Shown here one piece after another: positions 1,271 to 5,694 of a DNA stretch of 35,080 nucleotides. This DNA is from an uncultured Burkholderiales bacterium (GTDB lineage Bacteria > Pseudomonadota > Gammaproteobacteria > Burkholderiales > Casimicrobiaceae): the NCBI GenBank assembly GCA_937944385.1, contig CALDYQ010000034.1, forward strand, positions 1 through 35,080. The letters are read 5' to 3'. The notes beneath the pieces were generated by a model. The model made no database searches, was not told the DNA's origin, and was given only the letters and a program-made list of their open reading frames with translations. Each line of letters opens with the position of its first letter. Positions within the stretch are counted from its first letter, which is position 1. The position numbers were made by a program, and so were the translations under genes.

Positions 1271-1893
1271 TTGCCCCCCCGTCCAGCCTCGAGGATCGTC
1301 CGGATGCGCGCCACGGCATCTTCGAAGGCACCGGCCGGCTCGCCCGCCGTGATCGTCTCCACCTTCTCGTCGAGCACGATGACCTCGGTGCGCCGGTTCA
1401 GGCGCCGACCCGCTTCCAGATCGTTTGGTGCTACCGGCCGCTGGAACCAGAAGCCCTGGCGCGTCATGCGCTCGGACGGCACGCCGCGGTTCGCCAGCGC
1501 GCGCGCCACGGTCTCGGCGCGCTGCTCGGAGAGGCGCCGGTTGAGCTCTGTCGGGCCCTGGTTGTCGGTGTGACCTTCGACTGAAATCCGCTTGGTCGTC
1601 TTCGTCTTGAGCAGATGAGCGATACGGTCGAGGTAGGCGCCGCTCTCGCGCTCGTTCAGGTCGGCCTTGCCAACCTCGAAGAGTACGGTATCGGGCAGAA
1701 CGAACTGAACGCCGCGATCGATCTGCGCGATGGGCAGGCGTACCGGCGGTTGCGCCACGGCGGGCGCCGGCGCAGCGGGTTTGGGCTCGGTCGTGGCACA
1801 ACCGGATGCGAGGATCGACGAGAGGACAACGAGCGCGATGGCAGGGGCGAAGAGACGGCGGCGCGCGCGGTGTGGTGTGTGAATCGGGGGCAT
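1267..1893 (-). CDS. OmpA-family peptidoglycan-binding lipoprotein
   Basis: 208-residue protein with an N-terminal lipoprotein signal: basic residues (HRARRR), a hydrophobic core, and a lipobox LASGC near residue 29. After a Pro/Ala-rich linker comes an OmpA C-terminal domain (about residues 60-165) with the diagnostic region EGHTDNQGPTELNRRLSEQRAE, which in this family binds diaminopimelate-containing peptidoglycan. It is therefore predicted to be a membrane-anchored lipoprotein tethered to the cell wall. The ATG at 1893 was chosen because it gives a correctly placed lipobox; no strong Shine-Dalgarno is visible, and a longer in-frame extension (to 2013) would bury the signal peptide. It is co-transcribed with the patatin-like gene through an ATGA overlap. 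Confidence 0.88.
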   Translation of the reverse strand: MPPIHTPHRARRRLFAPAIALVVLSSILASGCATTEPKPAAPAPAVAQPPVRLPIAQIDRGVQFVLPDTVLFEVGKADLNERESGAYLDRIAHLLKTKTTKRISVEGHTDNQGPTELNRRLSEQRAETVARALANRGVPSERMTRQGFWFQRPVAPNDLEAGRRLNRRTEVIVLDEKVETITAGEPAGAFEDAVARIRTILEAGRGGK

Positions 1894-1937
1894 GGGGGTG
1901 TCGGTTTGGCAGGATGATCGAGGCCGGACGGTCGCGA

Positions 1938-1943
1938 ATGCTA
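1938..1943 (-). promoter_or_regulatory. Possible -10 box (TAGCAT) for the ompA-like/patatin operon
   Basis: Read on the minus strand, TAGCAT lies about 45 nt before the ATG at 1893. It matches the TAnnnT -10-like boxes seen upstream of several other genes in this window. No convincing -35 element was found, so the call is tentative. Confidence 0.3.
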
Positions 1944-2011
1944 GGTCGGTATTGGTGGTCGGCGACGCCCTCGCGCAAAGTTCGGACGACTCCGGGCGTG
2001 GGGCCGTGTTC

Positions 2012-2033
2012 AAACCGGGATCGCGATCGGTTT
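2012..2033. repeat. Interrupted palindrome between guaC and the ompA-like gene
   Basis: AAACCG, two extra G bases, the self-complementary core ATCGCGAT, then CGGTTT. Apart from the GG bulge the element is fully self-complementary. It has no T-run on either side, so it is not a clear terminator; it could be a protein-binding site or an RNA processing hairpin downstream of guaC. Confidence 0.5.
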
Positions 2034-2071
2034 CCCCGGCACCGAGGCAGCCGATCGTTGCAACCCATGCC

Positions 2072-3121
2072 TCAGTCCGCCCGACCGTAGACCTCGTTGA
2101 TCTGTTGCGTCACGCGCACGAAGGTCGTGCACTTGGAGAGGTCCTTGAGCTTTCGCGCGCCAACGTAGGTGCAGGTGGAGCGGAGCCCGCCCAGGATGTC
2201 CTGCACCGTGTTCTCCACCGGCCCGCGGGCGGGCAGGAGCACTTCCTTGCCTTCGCTCGCGCGGTACTTTGCGACACCGCCGGCGTATTTCTTCATCGCC
2301 ACATCGCTCGACATGCCGTAGAAGCGACGGTACGTCCGGCCGTCGCGCTCGACGATCTCGCCGCCGGATTCGTCGTGCGCCGCAAGCATGCCGCCGAGCA
2401 TGACGAAGTCTGCCCCACCACCGAAGGCCTTGGCCACGTCTCCCGGCACCGTGCAGCCGCCGTCGCCACAGATGTGCCCACCCAGGCCGTGGGCGGCATC
2501 GGCGCACTCGATGATCGCCGAGAGCTGCGGGTAGCCCACACCGGTCATCTTGCGCGTGGTGCACACGCTGCCCGGCCCGATGCCGACCTTGACGATGTCG
2601 GCGCCGGCGAGGATGAGTGCCTCGGTGACGTCTGCGGTCACCACGTTGCCGGCCATGATCGTGAGCGTGGGAAATTCATCGCGAAAGCGGCGGACGAAAT
2701 CGATGAAGGTCTCGGTGTAGCCATTGGCCACATCGATGCAGACGAACTCGATCGCCTCGCCCGTGGCACGGCGCACGGCACGGAATTTCTCGAGGTCCGG
2801 CTCGAGGATGCCGAGGGAATAGAACGCCAAACGGTGCGCCTCGCGGTTCGCATCCGAAAAGAAGCGCACGTAGTCCTCGACCGCGTAGTGCTTGTGCAGC
2901 GCCGTGTGCAGGTGGTGTCGAGCCAATGCGGCCGACATCTCGAACGTGCCGACCGTGTCCATGTTCGCCGCCACGATCGGCACGCTCGTGCTCGTGCGCC
3001 CGGAGTGGCGGTAGCGGTATTCGCGCAGCAGCTCGACGTTGGCCCGCGAGCCGAGCGTGGAACGCTTGGGGCGAAAGAGCACGTCCTTGAAATCGAGCTT
3101 GAGGTCTTCTTCGATGCGCAT
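2072..3121 (-). CDS. guaC: GMP reductase
   Basis: 349-residue (beta/alpha)8-barrel enzyme of the IMPDH/GMPR family, converting GMP plus NADPH to IMP plus ammonia in purine salvage. The catalytic-loop motif [20 protein letters not shown] is intact, with Cys187 as the thioimidate nucleophile. The length matches Escherichia coli GuaC (347 residues), and the CBS domains typical of IMP dehydrogenase are absent, which separates the two enzymes. The GGDGG-like phosphate site reads [27 protein letters not shown]. The ATG at 3121 follows an AGGA Shine-Dalgarno with about 7 nt spacing and gives the family-standard N-terminus ([21 protein letters not shown]). Its leader carries a terminator-like hairpin and a competing hairpin (separate entries), suggesting transcription attenuation. 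Confidence 0.97.
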
Positions 3122-3151
3122 GCGTTGGTCCTGCCCGAAAAGTGATGGACG

Positions 3152-3199
3152 AAAAAAAGCGAGAGGTGCGGCCGGATTCAACCTGTCGCAACCTCTCGC
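3152..3199 (-). terminator. Rho-independent terminator hairpin inside the guaC leader (attenuator candidate)
   Basis: On the minus strand GCGAGAGGT (3199-3191) pairs perfectly with ACCTCTCGC (3167-3159) across a 23-nt loop, followed at once by seven T residues (3158-3152). A near-copy of the 5' arm, GCGACAGGT (3189-3181), could serve as an alternative partner with one mismatch. No minus-strand gene lies upstream, so this is not the end of another operon: it sits 30 nt before the guaC start, downstream of a -10-like box, as an attenuator would. Confidence 0.72.
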
Positions 3200-3206
3200 G
3201 GGTTGC
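3188..3206 (-). promoter_or_regulatory. Candidate antiterminator hairpin in the guaC leader
   Basis: On the minus strand GCAACC pairs with GGTTGC around the 7-nt loop CGCGAGA. The 3' half of this hairpin and its loop contain the 5' arm of the guaC terminator, so the two structures cannot form together. It would be the first structure to form, because the inferred transcription start is at about 3204-3206. No known aptamer family was recognised. Confidence 0.5.
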
Positions 3207-3211
3207 AGGGG

Positions 3212-3217
3212 ATTCTA
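3212..3217 (-). promoter_or_regulatory. -10-like box (TAGAAT) of the guaC promoter
   Basis: TAGAAT on the minus strand matches five of six positions of the consensus -10. Transcription would begin near 3205, giving a leader of about 84 nt that starts with the antiterminator-like hairpin. The -35 region is poor. Confidence 0.5.
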
Positions 3218-3240
3218 GGCAGCGGCCGCGCCGGTCTCGA

Positions 3241-3246
3241 TAGACT
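3241..3246 (+). promoter_or_regulatory. -10-like box (TAGACT) of the DUF2891-rmuC-ligase operon
   Basis: TAGACT ends 7 nt before the ATG at 3254, so the transcript would begin at or next to the start codon (leaderless). It is divergent from the guaC promoter 24 bp away. The same spacing recurs at apbC, uvrD, argA and the ATP-grasp gene. Confidence 0.42.
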
Positions 3247-3253
3247 CGGATTC

Positions 3254-4327
3254 ATGTCCGAAAAAAGCGCTCTCCCCGCCGCTGCCATCGCGCCCGGCAA
3301 CGCCGACCTCGCCCGTGTCGCGCTGGCCCATGTCGCGCGGCCATTTCCGTTTCAGTTCACCCATCTCGTGGCCGATGAATCGGAAGGCCACGATCTCGAT
3401 CCGCAGCGACTGCACCCGGTCTTCGGTGGCAGCTACGACTGGCACTCCTCGGTGCACATGCACTGGTCGCTCGCGCGCCTGCTCAACCGTGCGGGCGCCG
3501 GGGTGTCTCCCGACGTTGCGCCCCTCGCACCCGAAATCGTCCAGCGCTTCGACCAGGCCTTCACGCCCGAGCACGTCGGGCGCGAGCTGGCCTATGTTGC
3601 GCGACCGGCGGCGGCGCACTGGGAGCGCCCCTACGGCTGGGCCTGGCTGCTCAAGCTCTATGCAGAACTCGCCGTCTGCGTCCATCCGAACGCGCACGCC
3701 TGGCGCAGCGCGCTCGCGCCGCTCGCTGACCTGCTGGCCGATCGGCTCTACGACTACCTCGGGCGGCTGCCGCATCCGGTGCGTCACGGCGTGCATGGCA
3801 ACACGGCCTTTGCGATGATCCTCGCGCTCCAGTTCGCGAACACCGTGGGGGATGCCGAGTTCGCCGCGCACCTGCGCGAGCGGGCGGGCGTGTTTTTTGG
3901 CGACGACCGGGACTATCGGCTCGCTTTTGATCGCTCGGGGGAGGACTTTCTCTCGCCCGCGCTGACCGAGGCGCTGCTCATGTCGTTCGCCCTGCCGCGG
4001 GCCGAATTTCTCGATTGGTTCGGGGGTTTTCTGCCGGAGGTCGCAGACGCGAATCACCCGTTCTTCGCGCCGGTTTCGGTGGGCGCAGCCAACGAGACCG
4101 ACGCCCGCATCGCACACCTTCACGGGTTGAATCTCTCGCGCACCTGGGCGCTTCGTGGTCTCATGCAGCAGCTCACACCCGGAGAAGATCCCCGCTGGCA
4201 GCGCTTTGGCGAGGCGGCGGGCGCGGCGCTCGCGGTGGCTGCCCCGGCCGTGGTCGGCGGCGACGATGTGAGCACCCACTGGCTCGTCTCGTTCTGGCTC
4301 CTCGCCGAGACGGAGTGGTCGGTATGA
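3254..4327 (+). CDS. DUF2891 family protein
   Basis: 357-residue soluble protein of the DUF2891 family, biochemical function unknown. Recognisable conserved segments are HPVFGGSYDWHSSVHMHW (about residues 57-74), ERPYGWAWLLKLYAEL (about 123-138), and a C-terminal HLHGLNLSRTWALRGL. The many His, Trp and aromatic residues in helix-rich segments suggest an alpha/alpha barrel with a polar pocket; that fold is inference. The ATG at 3254 was chosen over an in-frame upstream start because the conserved region begins shortly after it and a -10-like box lies 7 nt upstream. It is the first gene of a tightly packed operon: its stop overlaps the rmuC start (ATGA). Confidence 0.85.
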   Translation: MSEKSALPAAAIAPGNADLARVALAHVARPFPFQFTHLVADESEGHDLDPQRLHPVFGGSYDWHSSVHMHWSLARLLNRAGAGVSPDVAPLAPEIVQRFDQAFTPEHVGRELAYVARPAAAHWERPYGWAWLLKLYAELAVCVHPNAHAWRSALAPLADLLADRLYDYLGRLPHPVRHGVHGNTAFAMILALQFANTVGDAEFAAHLRERAGVFFGDDRDYRLAFDRSGEDFLSPALTEALLMSFALPRAEFLDWFGGFLPEVADANHPFFAPVSVGAANETDARIAHLHGLNLSRTWALRGLMQQLTPGEDPRWQRFGEAAGAALAVAAPAVVGGDDVSTHWLVSFWLLAETEWSV

Positions 4328-5694
4328 GCCTGATCGAAGGGCTGCTCGTCGCCATCGGGCTCGGACTCGTTTCGCTCATCCTGCTCGTGCTCTGGTCGAC
4401 GGGCCGGCTGAAGCGCGGCCTCGCGCAGGAGTTCTTGGGTACGTTCGAGGCGAAGCACCGCGCGATCACCGCGGATGTCGGGGCGCTCGTCAGTCAGGCG
4501 AGTGAGCGCATGGGGCGCGATCTCGCCCAGGTGGGGGCGAACACGCAGGGCGTCGTGCAGCGGCTCCAGGTCGACGTGGTGCATCACCTTTCGCAGCAGA
4601 CCGAGGCCTCGCTCAGGCAACTGGCCGAACTGCAGCAGGCGCTCACTGCGCGGCAGGACGCGCTCCGCCGCGATGTGCTCGAAGGCATGCTCTCGCGGCT
4701 CGCCGAGCAGACACGGGCCAATCAGGAACTGCTGCAGAACACGCTGCGCTCGATGGCCGGGCAGTTGCGTGAGCAGGCCGAGACGATGACCCGAAGCGTC
4801 GATGCGCGGCTCGAGCAGATCTCCGGCCGGGTCGACGAGCGGCTCGACCAGGGCTTTCAGAAGACGCACGAGACTTTCGCCAACGTCATGGCGCGACTGG
4901 CCGTCATCGACGAGGCGCAAAAGAAGATCGAGGGCCTGACGAGCAACGTCGTCTCACTGCAGCAGGTGCTCTCGGACCGCTCGGCGCGCGGCGCCTTTGG
5001 TGAGGTGCAGCTCGAGGCGCTCGTGCGCGATACGCTGCCGCCGGCGGTCTATGCCTTTCAGGCGCCGGTTGGCGAGGGGCGTGAGCGGGCCGACTGTGTG
5101 CTGACCATGCCTGATGGCGGAACGAAGCTCGCGATCGATTCGAAGTTCCCGCTGTCGAACTATCGCCGCGCAATCGATGCGACGCTACCCGAGGCCGAGC
5201 GACAGGCGGCACGCAAACAGTTCGTCACCGATGTGAAGAAGCATCTGCATGACATTGCGGACAAGTACATCCAACCCGCGGCGGGCGCGGACTCGGCCGT
5301 GATGTTCGTCCCATCGGAGGCGGTGTTCGCCGAAATCGTCGCCCGGCACCCCGAGGTCATCGAGCAGGCGCAGCGTGAGCGGGTGTGGATCACCTCGCCC
5401 ACGACCCTCATGGCGGTGCTGCACAGCGTGCGGGCCGTGCTTCGGGACGCCGAGACGCGCCGCCAAGCCGCGGTCATCAAGACCGAGCTCGACAAGCTGG
5501 CCAAGGACTTCGGACGCTTCCAGGAGCGCATGGACAAGCTCGCACAGCACATCAAGCAAGCGCATGACGACGTCGATCAAGTCGCAATCTCTGCGCGCAA
5601 GATCAGCGGCCGCTTCGAGCGCATTCAGGCGGTCGAGGTGCCTGCGTCCCCGGCCGCAGGCGTGCCGCTGCCCGCCCCCGAGCGCGATGTTTGA
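4324..5694 (+). CDS. rmuC: DNA recombination protein RmuC
   Basis: 456-residue RmuC homologue. One membrane segment (about residues 5-25, SLIEGLLVAIGLGLVSLILLVL) is followed by a long Gln/Arg/Glu-rich coiled coil (about 30-215) and the conserved RmuC domain (about 215-420). That domain contains SARGAFGEVQLEALVRDTLPP, the segment KLAIDSKFPLSNYRRAID with the nuclease-like DSKFP motif, and MFVPSEAVFAEIV. In E. coli RmuC limits recombination at small inverted repeats; a nuclease activity is suspected from the fold. The ATG overlaps the DUF2891 stop, and the 3' end overlaps mtfA by 8 bp. Location next to a DNA ligase and an exonuclease supports a DNA-repair role. Confidence 0.96.
   Translation: MSLIEGLLVAIGLGLVSLILLVLWSTGRLKRGLAQEFLGTFEAKHRAITADVGALVSQASERMGRDLAQVGANTQGVVQRLQVDVVHHLSQQTEASLRQLAELQQALTARQDALRRDVLEGMLSRLAEQTRANQELLQNTLRSMAGQLREQAETMTRSVDARLEQISGRVDERLDQGFQKTHETFANVMARLAVIDEAQKKIEGLTSNVVSLQQVLSDRSARGAFGEVQLEALVRDTLPPAVYAFQAPVGEGRERADCVLTMPDGGTKLAIDSKFPLSNYRRAIDATLPEAERQAARKQFVTDVKKHLHDIADKYIQPAAGADSAVMFVPSEAVFAEIVARHPEVIEQAQRERVWITSPTTLMAVLHSVRAVLRDAETRRQAAVIKTELDKLAKDFGRFQERMDKLAQHIKQAHDDVDQVAISARKISGRFERIQAVEVPASPAAGVPLPAPERDV

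Follow-up and report, generated by a model that had tools for sequence, protein, structure and literature searches.

GMP reductase, encoded by guaC, acts as a valve through which guanine nucleotides return to adenine nucleotides. At pyrC, codBA and upp of E. coli and Salmonella, nucleotide-sensitive selection of the transcription start site responds to pyrimidine pools, at pyrC with an effect via translation. Reiterative initiation at pyrG of B. subtilis is said to have been described by Meng in 2004. Published passages on this gene state that CTP-sensitive reiterative initiation governs attenuation and that non-templated extra G residues prevent it (PMC4448216). The ilvB uORF motif is portrayed in excerpts of another study as a leader-peptide type of element in which a P1 antiterminator overlaps a P2 intrinsic terminator (PMC11109978).

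The guaC leaders analyzed here share features with each of these systems. As in the account of pyrG given by those passages, the nucleotide pool at the 5'-end of the transcript would decide between terminator and readthrough of a gene of nucleotide metabolism. Unlike pyrG as described there, most lineages lack a homopolymer at the predicted start of guaC, and the hairpin arm itself consists of templated first bases. Alternative starts a few bases apart that alter a 5'-hairpin would be a feature in common with pyrC, codBA and upp, start switching at guaC being our proposal, whereas at guaC and purA purine genes and a terminator are involved. The leaders of the genus studied here resemble the excerpted ilvB uORF motif in having an antiterminator that overlaps a terminator, but the predicted transcript has neither RNA upstream of the first hairpin nor room for a uORF. 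Purine-sensing riboswitches, as they are generally known, likewise combine a purine gene with a terminator; in contrast, no aptamer was detected at guaC and there was no Rfam match. By analogy, the guaC element would work like nucleotide-sensing initiation, as at pyrC or pyrG, joined to a terminator. At the level of titles and abstracts, the open-licence PMC literature yielded no description of an attenuator or riboswitch at a proteobacterial guaC gene.

The guaC leader of the window

The window, i.e. the whole stretch of DNA analyzed, comprises 35,080 nucleotides from an uncultured bacterium of the Burkholderiales. The product of its guaC gene scored above the cut-off of NCBIfam PRK05096 (582 bits) and TIGR01305 (553 bits) and contains the Pfam IMPDH/GMP reductase domain. 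The gene and the elements of its leader are the following:

2072..3121, minus strand: guaC, GMP reductase (349 aa plus stop), from NCBIfam and Pfam
3152..3158, minus strand: run of seven T residues; elsewhere in the genus the leaders have T-runs of at least five
3159..3167, minus strand: 3'-arm of the putative terminator (hairpin 2), ACCTCTCGC
3188..3193, minus strand: 3'-arm of the putative antiterminator (hairpin 1), GGTTGC, paired in 84 of 84 cells in 14 leaders
3191..3199, minus strand: 5'-arm of the putative terminator (hairpin 2), GCGAGAGGT, within the loop and 3'-arm of the antiterminator
3201..3206, minus strand: 5'-arm of the putative antiterminator (hairpin 1), GCAACC; G6 and A8 after the -10 box are both pyrimidine-purine candidate starts, given the start range in passages of PMC5730371
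3207..3211, minus strand: discriminator CCCCT of 5 nt, a length fixed in the genus of the window
3212..3217, minus strand: -10 box TAGAAT of the predicted guaC promoter; all 14 leaders of the genus have TA...T in this position
3235..3240, minus strand: TCGAGA, a weak -35-like hexamer with a spacer of 17 nt to the -10 box, from a consensus scan, low confidence

The start codon of guaC lies at 3121, 30 nt past the T-run. The first-pass annotation had placed both hairpins, the TAGAAT box, the seven T residues and the distance to the ATG correctly, on the minus strand, and both hairpins proved to be conserved in the genus. A near-copy of the terminator 5'-arm (GCGACAGGT, 3189-3181), to which it had also given a role, was absent from the other 13 leaders in alignment A2 and thus probably occurs by chance. 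TAGAAT together with the weak TCGAGA (spacer 17) was the sole promoter-like site found in 1800-4400. With -24.3 kcal/mol, the fold of the 57-nt leader was better than all of 200 dinucleotide shuffles (mean -13.9, z -4.15). With 13 extra 5'-bases z was -3.0 and 1 of 200 shuffles was equally good, and extension of the stretch to the start codon gave a z of only -1.4 with 16 of 200 shuffles as good. Hairpin 2 was not listed by a simple terminator scan, whose permitted loops were restricted to 3-8 nt.

The divergent gene on the plus strand encodes a DUF2891 protein (Pfam PF11199). At 3241-3256 a -10-like TAGACT precedes its ATG by only 7 nt and its mRNA is therefore probably leaderless. This box abuts the -35-like hexamer of guaC, and its complement AGTCTA is retained in those 12 relatives within the genus that were displayed with the leader.

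Conservation within the genus

Full upstream sequence was available for 14 guaC loci of the genus (L002-L015), with the element of L013, located about 355 nt upstream, being read in its duplicate L058. Two genomes were left out, one with guaC cut by a contig end (G006) and one holding a distant relative only (G014). All 14 leaders showed TA...T followed after exactly 5 nt by a GCAAYC-type arm, a loop, GGTTGY and an overlapping terminator. The arm reads GCAACC apart from the one-base variants GCAACT (L004) and GCAATC (L012). A 15th leader was located on a small contig ending before guaC. The overlap of the terminator 5'-arm with the 3'-arm of hairpin 1 measures 3 nt in 12 leaders, 2 nt in L003 and 8 nt in L013. 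The predicted promoter, the putative intrinsic terminator and the conserved, mutually exclusive antiterminator together give these leaders the anatomy of a transcription attenuator, as far as can be judged from sequence.

Complete pairing of hairpin 1 was accompanied by six one-sided and no two-sided changes, which leaves its covariation unproven. The bases G6, C7, A8 and A9 were identical in all 14 leaders. In the terminator of the genus the outer pairs vary, e.g. G-C versus A-T, and the stretch between its arms shows no conservation, being as short as 13 nt in L003. Scanning the genus, 17 genomes in all, with a sequence pattern resulted in 30 matches. Half of these were guaC leaders, found in 14 genomes, and the remaining 15 did not exceed the reversed control (21 matches).

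guaC leaders of other families

In total 171 guaC leaders were read, near-duplicates included, of which 162 were distinct by their last 100 nt. Rows with a cut gene (L025, L026, L039, L159) and those belonging to other IMP dehydrogenase-like genes (L027-L031) were dropped. A blind search for terminators within 200 nt of the ATG covered the first 137 leaders and found 47 guaC terminators. In 23 of these a -10 box ended 4-7 nt ahead of the hairpin, and in 19 the distance was exactly 5 nt. In contrast, spacing was flat for 560 other terminators of the same loci (43 at 4-7 nt, 13 at 5 nt). Ignoring species relatedness, the enrichment of the 5-nt gap corresponds to a Fisher odds ratio of 28.6; this control is too strict, since 5 of its 43 matching rows, some of them among the 13 at 5 nt, are themselves guaC leaders. 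That the guaC hairpin is the terminator of the upstream gene is unlikely, given that the 560 other terminators lack a preferred -10 spacing.

Across all 171 leaders there were 55 that matched. From the 48 distinct matches, 8 were dropped by eye as spurious, being AT-rich or coding, and 40 were kept as leaders of a second kind; L016, with its leader about 370 nt upstream of the ATG, is not among them. The terminator's own 5'-arm begins at the predicted first transcribed nucleotide in these leaders, with a distance from the -10 box of 5 nt in 27 and of 4-8 nt in all 40. Position 5 is a pyrimidine in 33, position 7 an A in 38 and position 9 a G in 34 of them, and 28 carry AACG at positions 6-9. 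They originate from the Burkholderiales families f1 and f20, Zobellella, Oceanimonas, Aeromonas and one gammaproteobacterial MAG. Within family f20 the layout was present in 27 of 41 genomes with an uncut guaC and absent from the other 14. The leaders of Zobellella, Oceanimonas and Aeromonas have a different stem (AAACCGG...). After removal of spurious matches, the layout was absent from the enterobacterial (ten), Bacteroidota and alphaproteobacterial guaC leaders examined. None of the 40 leaders, all outside the genus of the window, contained the antiterminator. Since ACG occurs near the base of the terminator arm in 7 of the 14 leaders of the genus, the layout of the genus resembles that of the relatives with GCAACC prefixed.

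A conserved YG or YCYG motif following the T-run was considered as a GTP pause signal and dropped. TCTG is commonly found behind the T-run of intrinsic terminators, and the tails of the control terminators stood in a different register.

Several records deserve mention on their own. In L099 and L124 a -10 box is followed after 4 nt by AAAACCGGT and a distant ACCGGTT without a T-run, about 125 nt before guaC; these leaders are perhaps a decayed or translation-acting version. Records named Marinobacter nauticus DP3N21-5 and Ferrimonas balearica DP5N7-6 share near-identical guaC leaders, and several Chryseobacterium have a GuaC 63-64% identical to that of the window. Horizontal transfer or a mislabelled record are possible explanations for this set (L099, L124 and L112-L132).

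Helix covariation

Alignment A3 combined 26 rows, i.e. 22 guaC leaders chosen from the 28 with AACG and 4 leaders of hisZ-purA. Its helix was 92% paired and 8 of 12 pairs changed on both sides. Two-sided changes amounted to 50 cells compared to 16.2 +- 3.8 in shuffles and 6-17 when slid, with species relatedness ignored here as in the spacing statistics. The outer AACG/CGUU is invariant, in part because rows were chosen for AACG. Of the two stems for which the first-pass annotation had suggested a check of conservation and covariation in relatives, the terminator is conserved and covaries, and the antiterminator is conserved in its pairing with covariation unproven. Its view of attenuation by mutually exclusive hairpins is supported by all 14 genus leaders with full upstream sequence and by the covarying guaC terminator of other families.

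A covariance model of guaC and hisZ-purA leaders, searched against 250 genomes, ranked 5 guaC and 4 hisZ-purA leaders as its nine best matches, followed by one occurrence before an rlmL-like gene. This ranking is not independent, because at least 8 of the 26 model rows were taken from these very places. Matches with E values of about 1e-4 and above resembled ordinary terminators, often on both strands.

Occurrence before hisZ-purA and other genes

A pattern derived from guaC leaders alone was searched in 399 genomes of the order and matched 38 places in 34 of them. Four of these places were guaC, and 12 of the 38 were examined. A layout like that of guaC was thereby found before hisZ-purA in five genomes of one genus (g66, L236-L240). 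Both hisZ and purA follow the leader in each of the five, and NCBIfam confirmed HisZ and PurA in one. PurA opens the branch from IMP to AMP and GuaC supplies IMP from GMP, both being steps towards AMP. The number of pattern matches did not exceed background, the reversed control having matched about 70 genomes by hand count, i.e. about twice as many; the case for hisZ-purA thus rests on the perfect TATAAT, the varying but paired stem and the recurrence in five genomes. In 40 other hisZ upstream regions, taken from 234 genomes with hisZ, no -10 box was found 4-8 nt before a hairpin. The element was likewise absent from the 13 purA upstream regions scanned in the genus of the window, in which 16 purA loci were found.

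Two further matches concern other genes. In one genome (L295:1501-1540, plus strand) TACAAT is followed after 5 nt by AACGGTGCGA..TCGCGCCGTT and a T-run directly before the gene for the rlmL-like rRNA methyltransferase. Two species that share a genus (L229, L230) have TATAAT, 5 nt, AACGCCGCAG..CTGCGGCGTT and a short T-run ahead of an MFS transporter gene; this hairpin may be the terminator of the upstream gene.

Possible mechanisms of regulation

Comparison of the leaders supports their anatomy well, with conserved elements, a fixed spacing from the -10 box and the pairing; it is that of an attenuator pinned to the predicted transcription start, with termination in the cell likewise predicted. 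The predicted transcript, with its start deduced from the -10 box, begins at the hairpin and offers no upstream RNA for a uORF. Hence neither a leader peptide nor an aptamer would fit upstream of the first arm, and the start itself, the speed of the polymerase or a trans-acting factor remain as inputs. Among the options named by the first-pass annotation, the anatomy favours the third, nucleotide-sensing initiation, and its interpretation as a whole is partly supported. Reiterative initiation in the manner of pyrBI or pyrG would need a homopolymer at the start, and the transcripts are predicted to begin with GCAA in the genus and with AACG in 28 of the 40 relatives; AAA or AAAA is found at the start in Zobellella, Oceanimonas and Aeromonas.

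The explanation that we favour as a whole, tentatively and with chances somewhat below even, is an attenuator that folds from the first transcribed bases while RNA polymerase reads the purine NTP pools. In the genus the first six transcribed bases GCAACC would form the antiterminator that blocks the terminator, whereas in the relatives the first bases, mostly AACG, would themselves be the terminator 5'-arm. As no leader RNA would precede them, the input would most likely be read by RNA polymerase from the purine NTP pools. A start with G at high GTP would complete the antiterminator in the genus and truncate the terminator in the relatives, so that guaC is read, and a start with A at high ATP would lead to termination. 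Two opposite layouts, antiterminator first with a G in front and terminator first with an A in front, would in this way follow one rule, and GTP-on/ATP-off would suit an enzyme draining guanine nucleotides.

According to passages of PMC5730371, transcription starts 6-9 nt after the -10 box, most often at 7, and pyrimidines at discriminator positions 1-2 favour starts further downstream. Both candidate starts G6 and A8 are pyrimidine-purine steps inside this range, and pyrimidine5-G6 as well as C7-A8 were present in 15 of 15 leaders of the genus. Positions 1-2 were pyrimidines in 27 of 30 cells of these leaders compared to 34 of 80 among the relatives. Because of these pyrimidines, the conditional start in the genus would be G6. 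In the relatives the terminator would be shortened if transcription began at G9.

With the start at A8 rather than G6, the calculated energy of the antiterminator hairpin was -0.7..-5.1 kcal/mol in place of -5.5..-8.9 kcal/mol (13 arms), and in 12 of the 13 arms most of the stability was lost. For the relatives, moving the start from A6 to G9 as a rule took only about 3 kcal/mol from the terminator, which kept -6.7 to -24.7 kcal/mol, so that the choice of start would by itself switch these leaders only weakly. Evidence against start choice also comes from the leaders of Zobellella, Oceanimonas and Aeromonas, which lack a G at positions 6-9. In the genus all 14 leaders were more stable when folded as the terminator, irrespective of the start. 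The barrier out of the antiterminator was higher for the G start by at least 0.7 kcal/mol in 8 of 14 leaders and within 0.6 kcal/mol of equal in the other 6, the leader of the window included. Start choice as the trigger, with a GTP start switching guaC on and an ATP start switching it off, is put forward as a hypothesis that is rather unlikely to hold. Similarly, a switch without a separate sensor, in which the polymerase is the sensor and GTP or ATP as first nucleotide decides whether a terminator or antiterminator at +1 is complete, is conceivable, if on the unlikely side. Our best guess is that readthrough is set by purine-NTP-dependent initiation or elongation speed, which the energy calculations support in part.

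The stability of the relatives' terminator irrespective of the start, and the preference for the terminator fold in all genus leaders, would equally suit an unregulated throttle, in which a constitutive promoter-proximal terminator keeps guaC expression low and the 5'-terminal hairpin stabilizes the mRNA that escapes. 5'-terminal hairpins do protect mRNA, and a sensor is not visible. A throttle needs no antiterminator, yet one is conserved in 14 of 14 genus leaders, and the layout recurs before a second AMP-forming operon. We regard this explanation as possible and somewhat unlikely.

Elongation rate may be the input even if starts are uniform. A slow polymerase at low GTP would allow refolding to the terminator and a fast one would read through. 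The computed refolding barriers of 4.0-12.3 kcal/mol would reach the range that competes with transcription time, and since no G start is needed, such an attenuator also fits Zobellella and Aeromonas, with the same physiological sign as the explanation favoured above. However, it offers no explanation for the fixed position of the arm at the first nucleotides, and the relatives have no antiterminator to refold from. We regard it as an unlikely alternative.

A trans-acting protein or small RNA that binds the nascent hairpin and controls termination is improbable. Such a factor could act on any hairpin and the frequent AACG/CGUU base (28 of 40) might be its binding site, but neither the length nor the sequence of the loops is conserved, and the stems differ by group (AACGCCGG versus AAACCGGGGG).

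The metabolite-binding riboswitch considered by the first-pass annotation, to which two exclusive hairpins before a purine gene would point, is highly improbable: the window and 12 relative loci gave no Rfam match at the gathering score and, at E up to 10, just two plus-strand matches at chance level, no conserved aptamer was found, the variable stretch between the arms together with the lack of an Rfam match makes an aptamer unlikely, and outside the genus no aptamer-sized RNA precedes the terminator.

Conclusions

An attenuator could hardly be smaller than a terminator that starts at the first transcribed base, which leaves little as input beyond the polymerase and the supply of NTPs. The guaC leader would thus be a clean system for studying how transcription reads the purine balance. 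If the favoured explanation is true, AMP-forming genes, i.e. guaC and in one genus purA, would be read at a high ratio of GTP to ATP. How copying starts or proceeds, and not a separate sensor, may then set the amount of enzyme.
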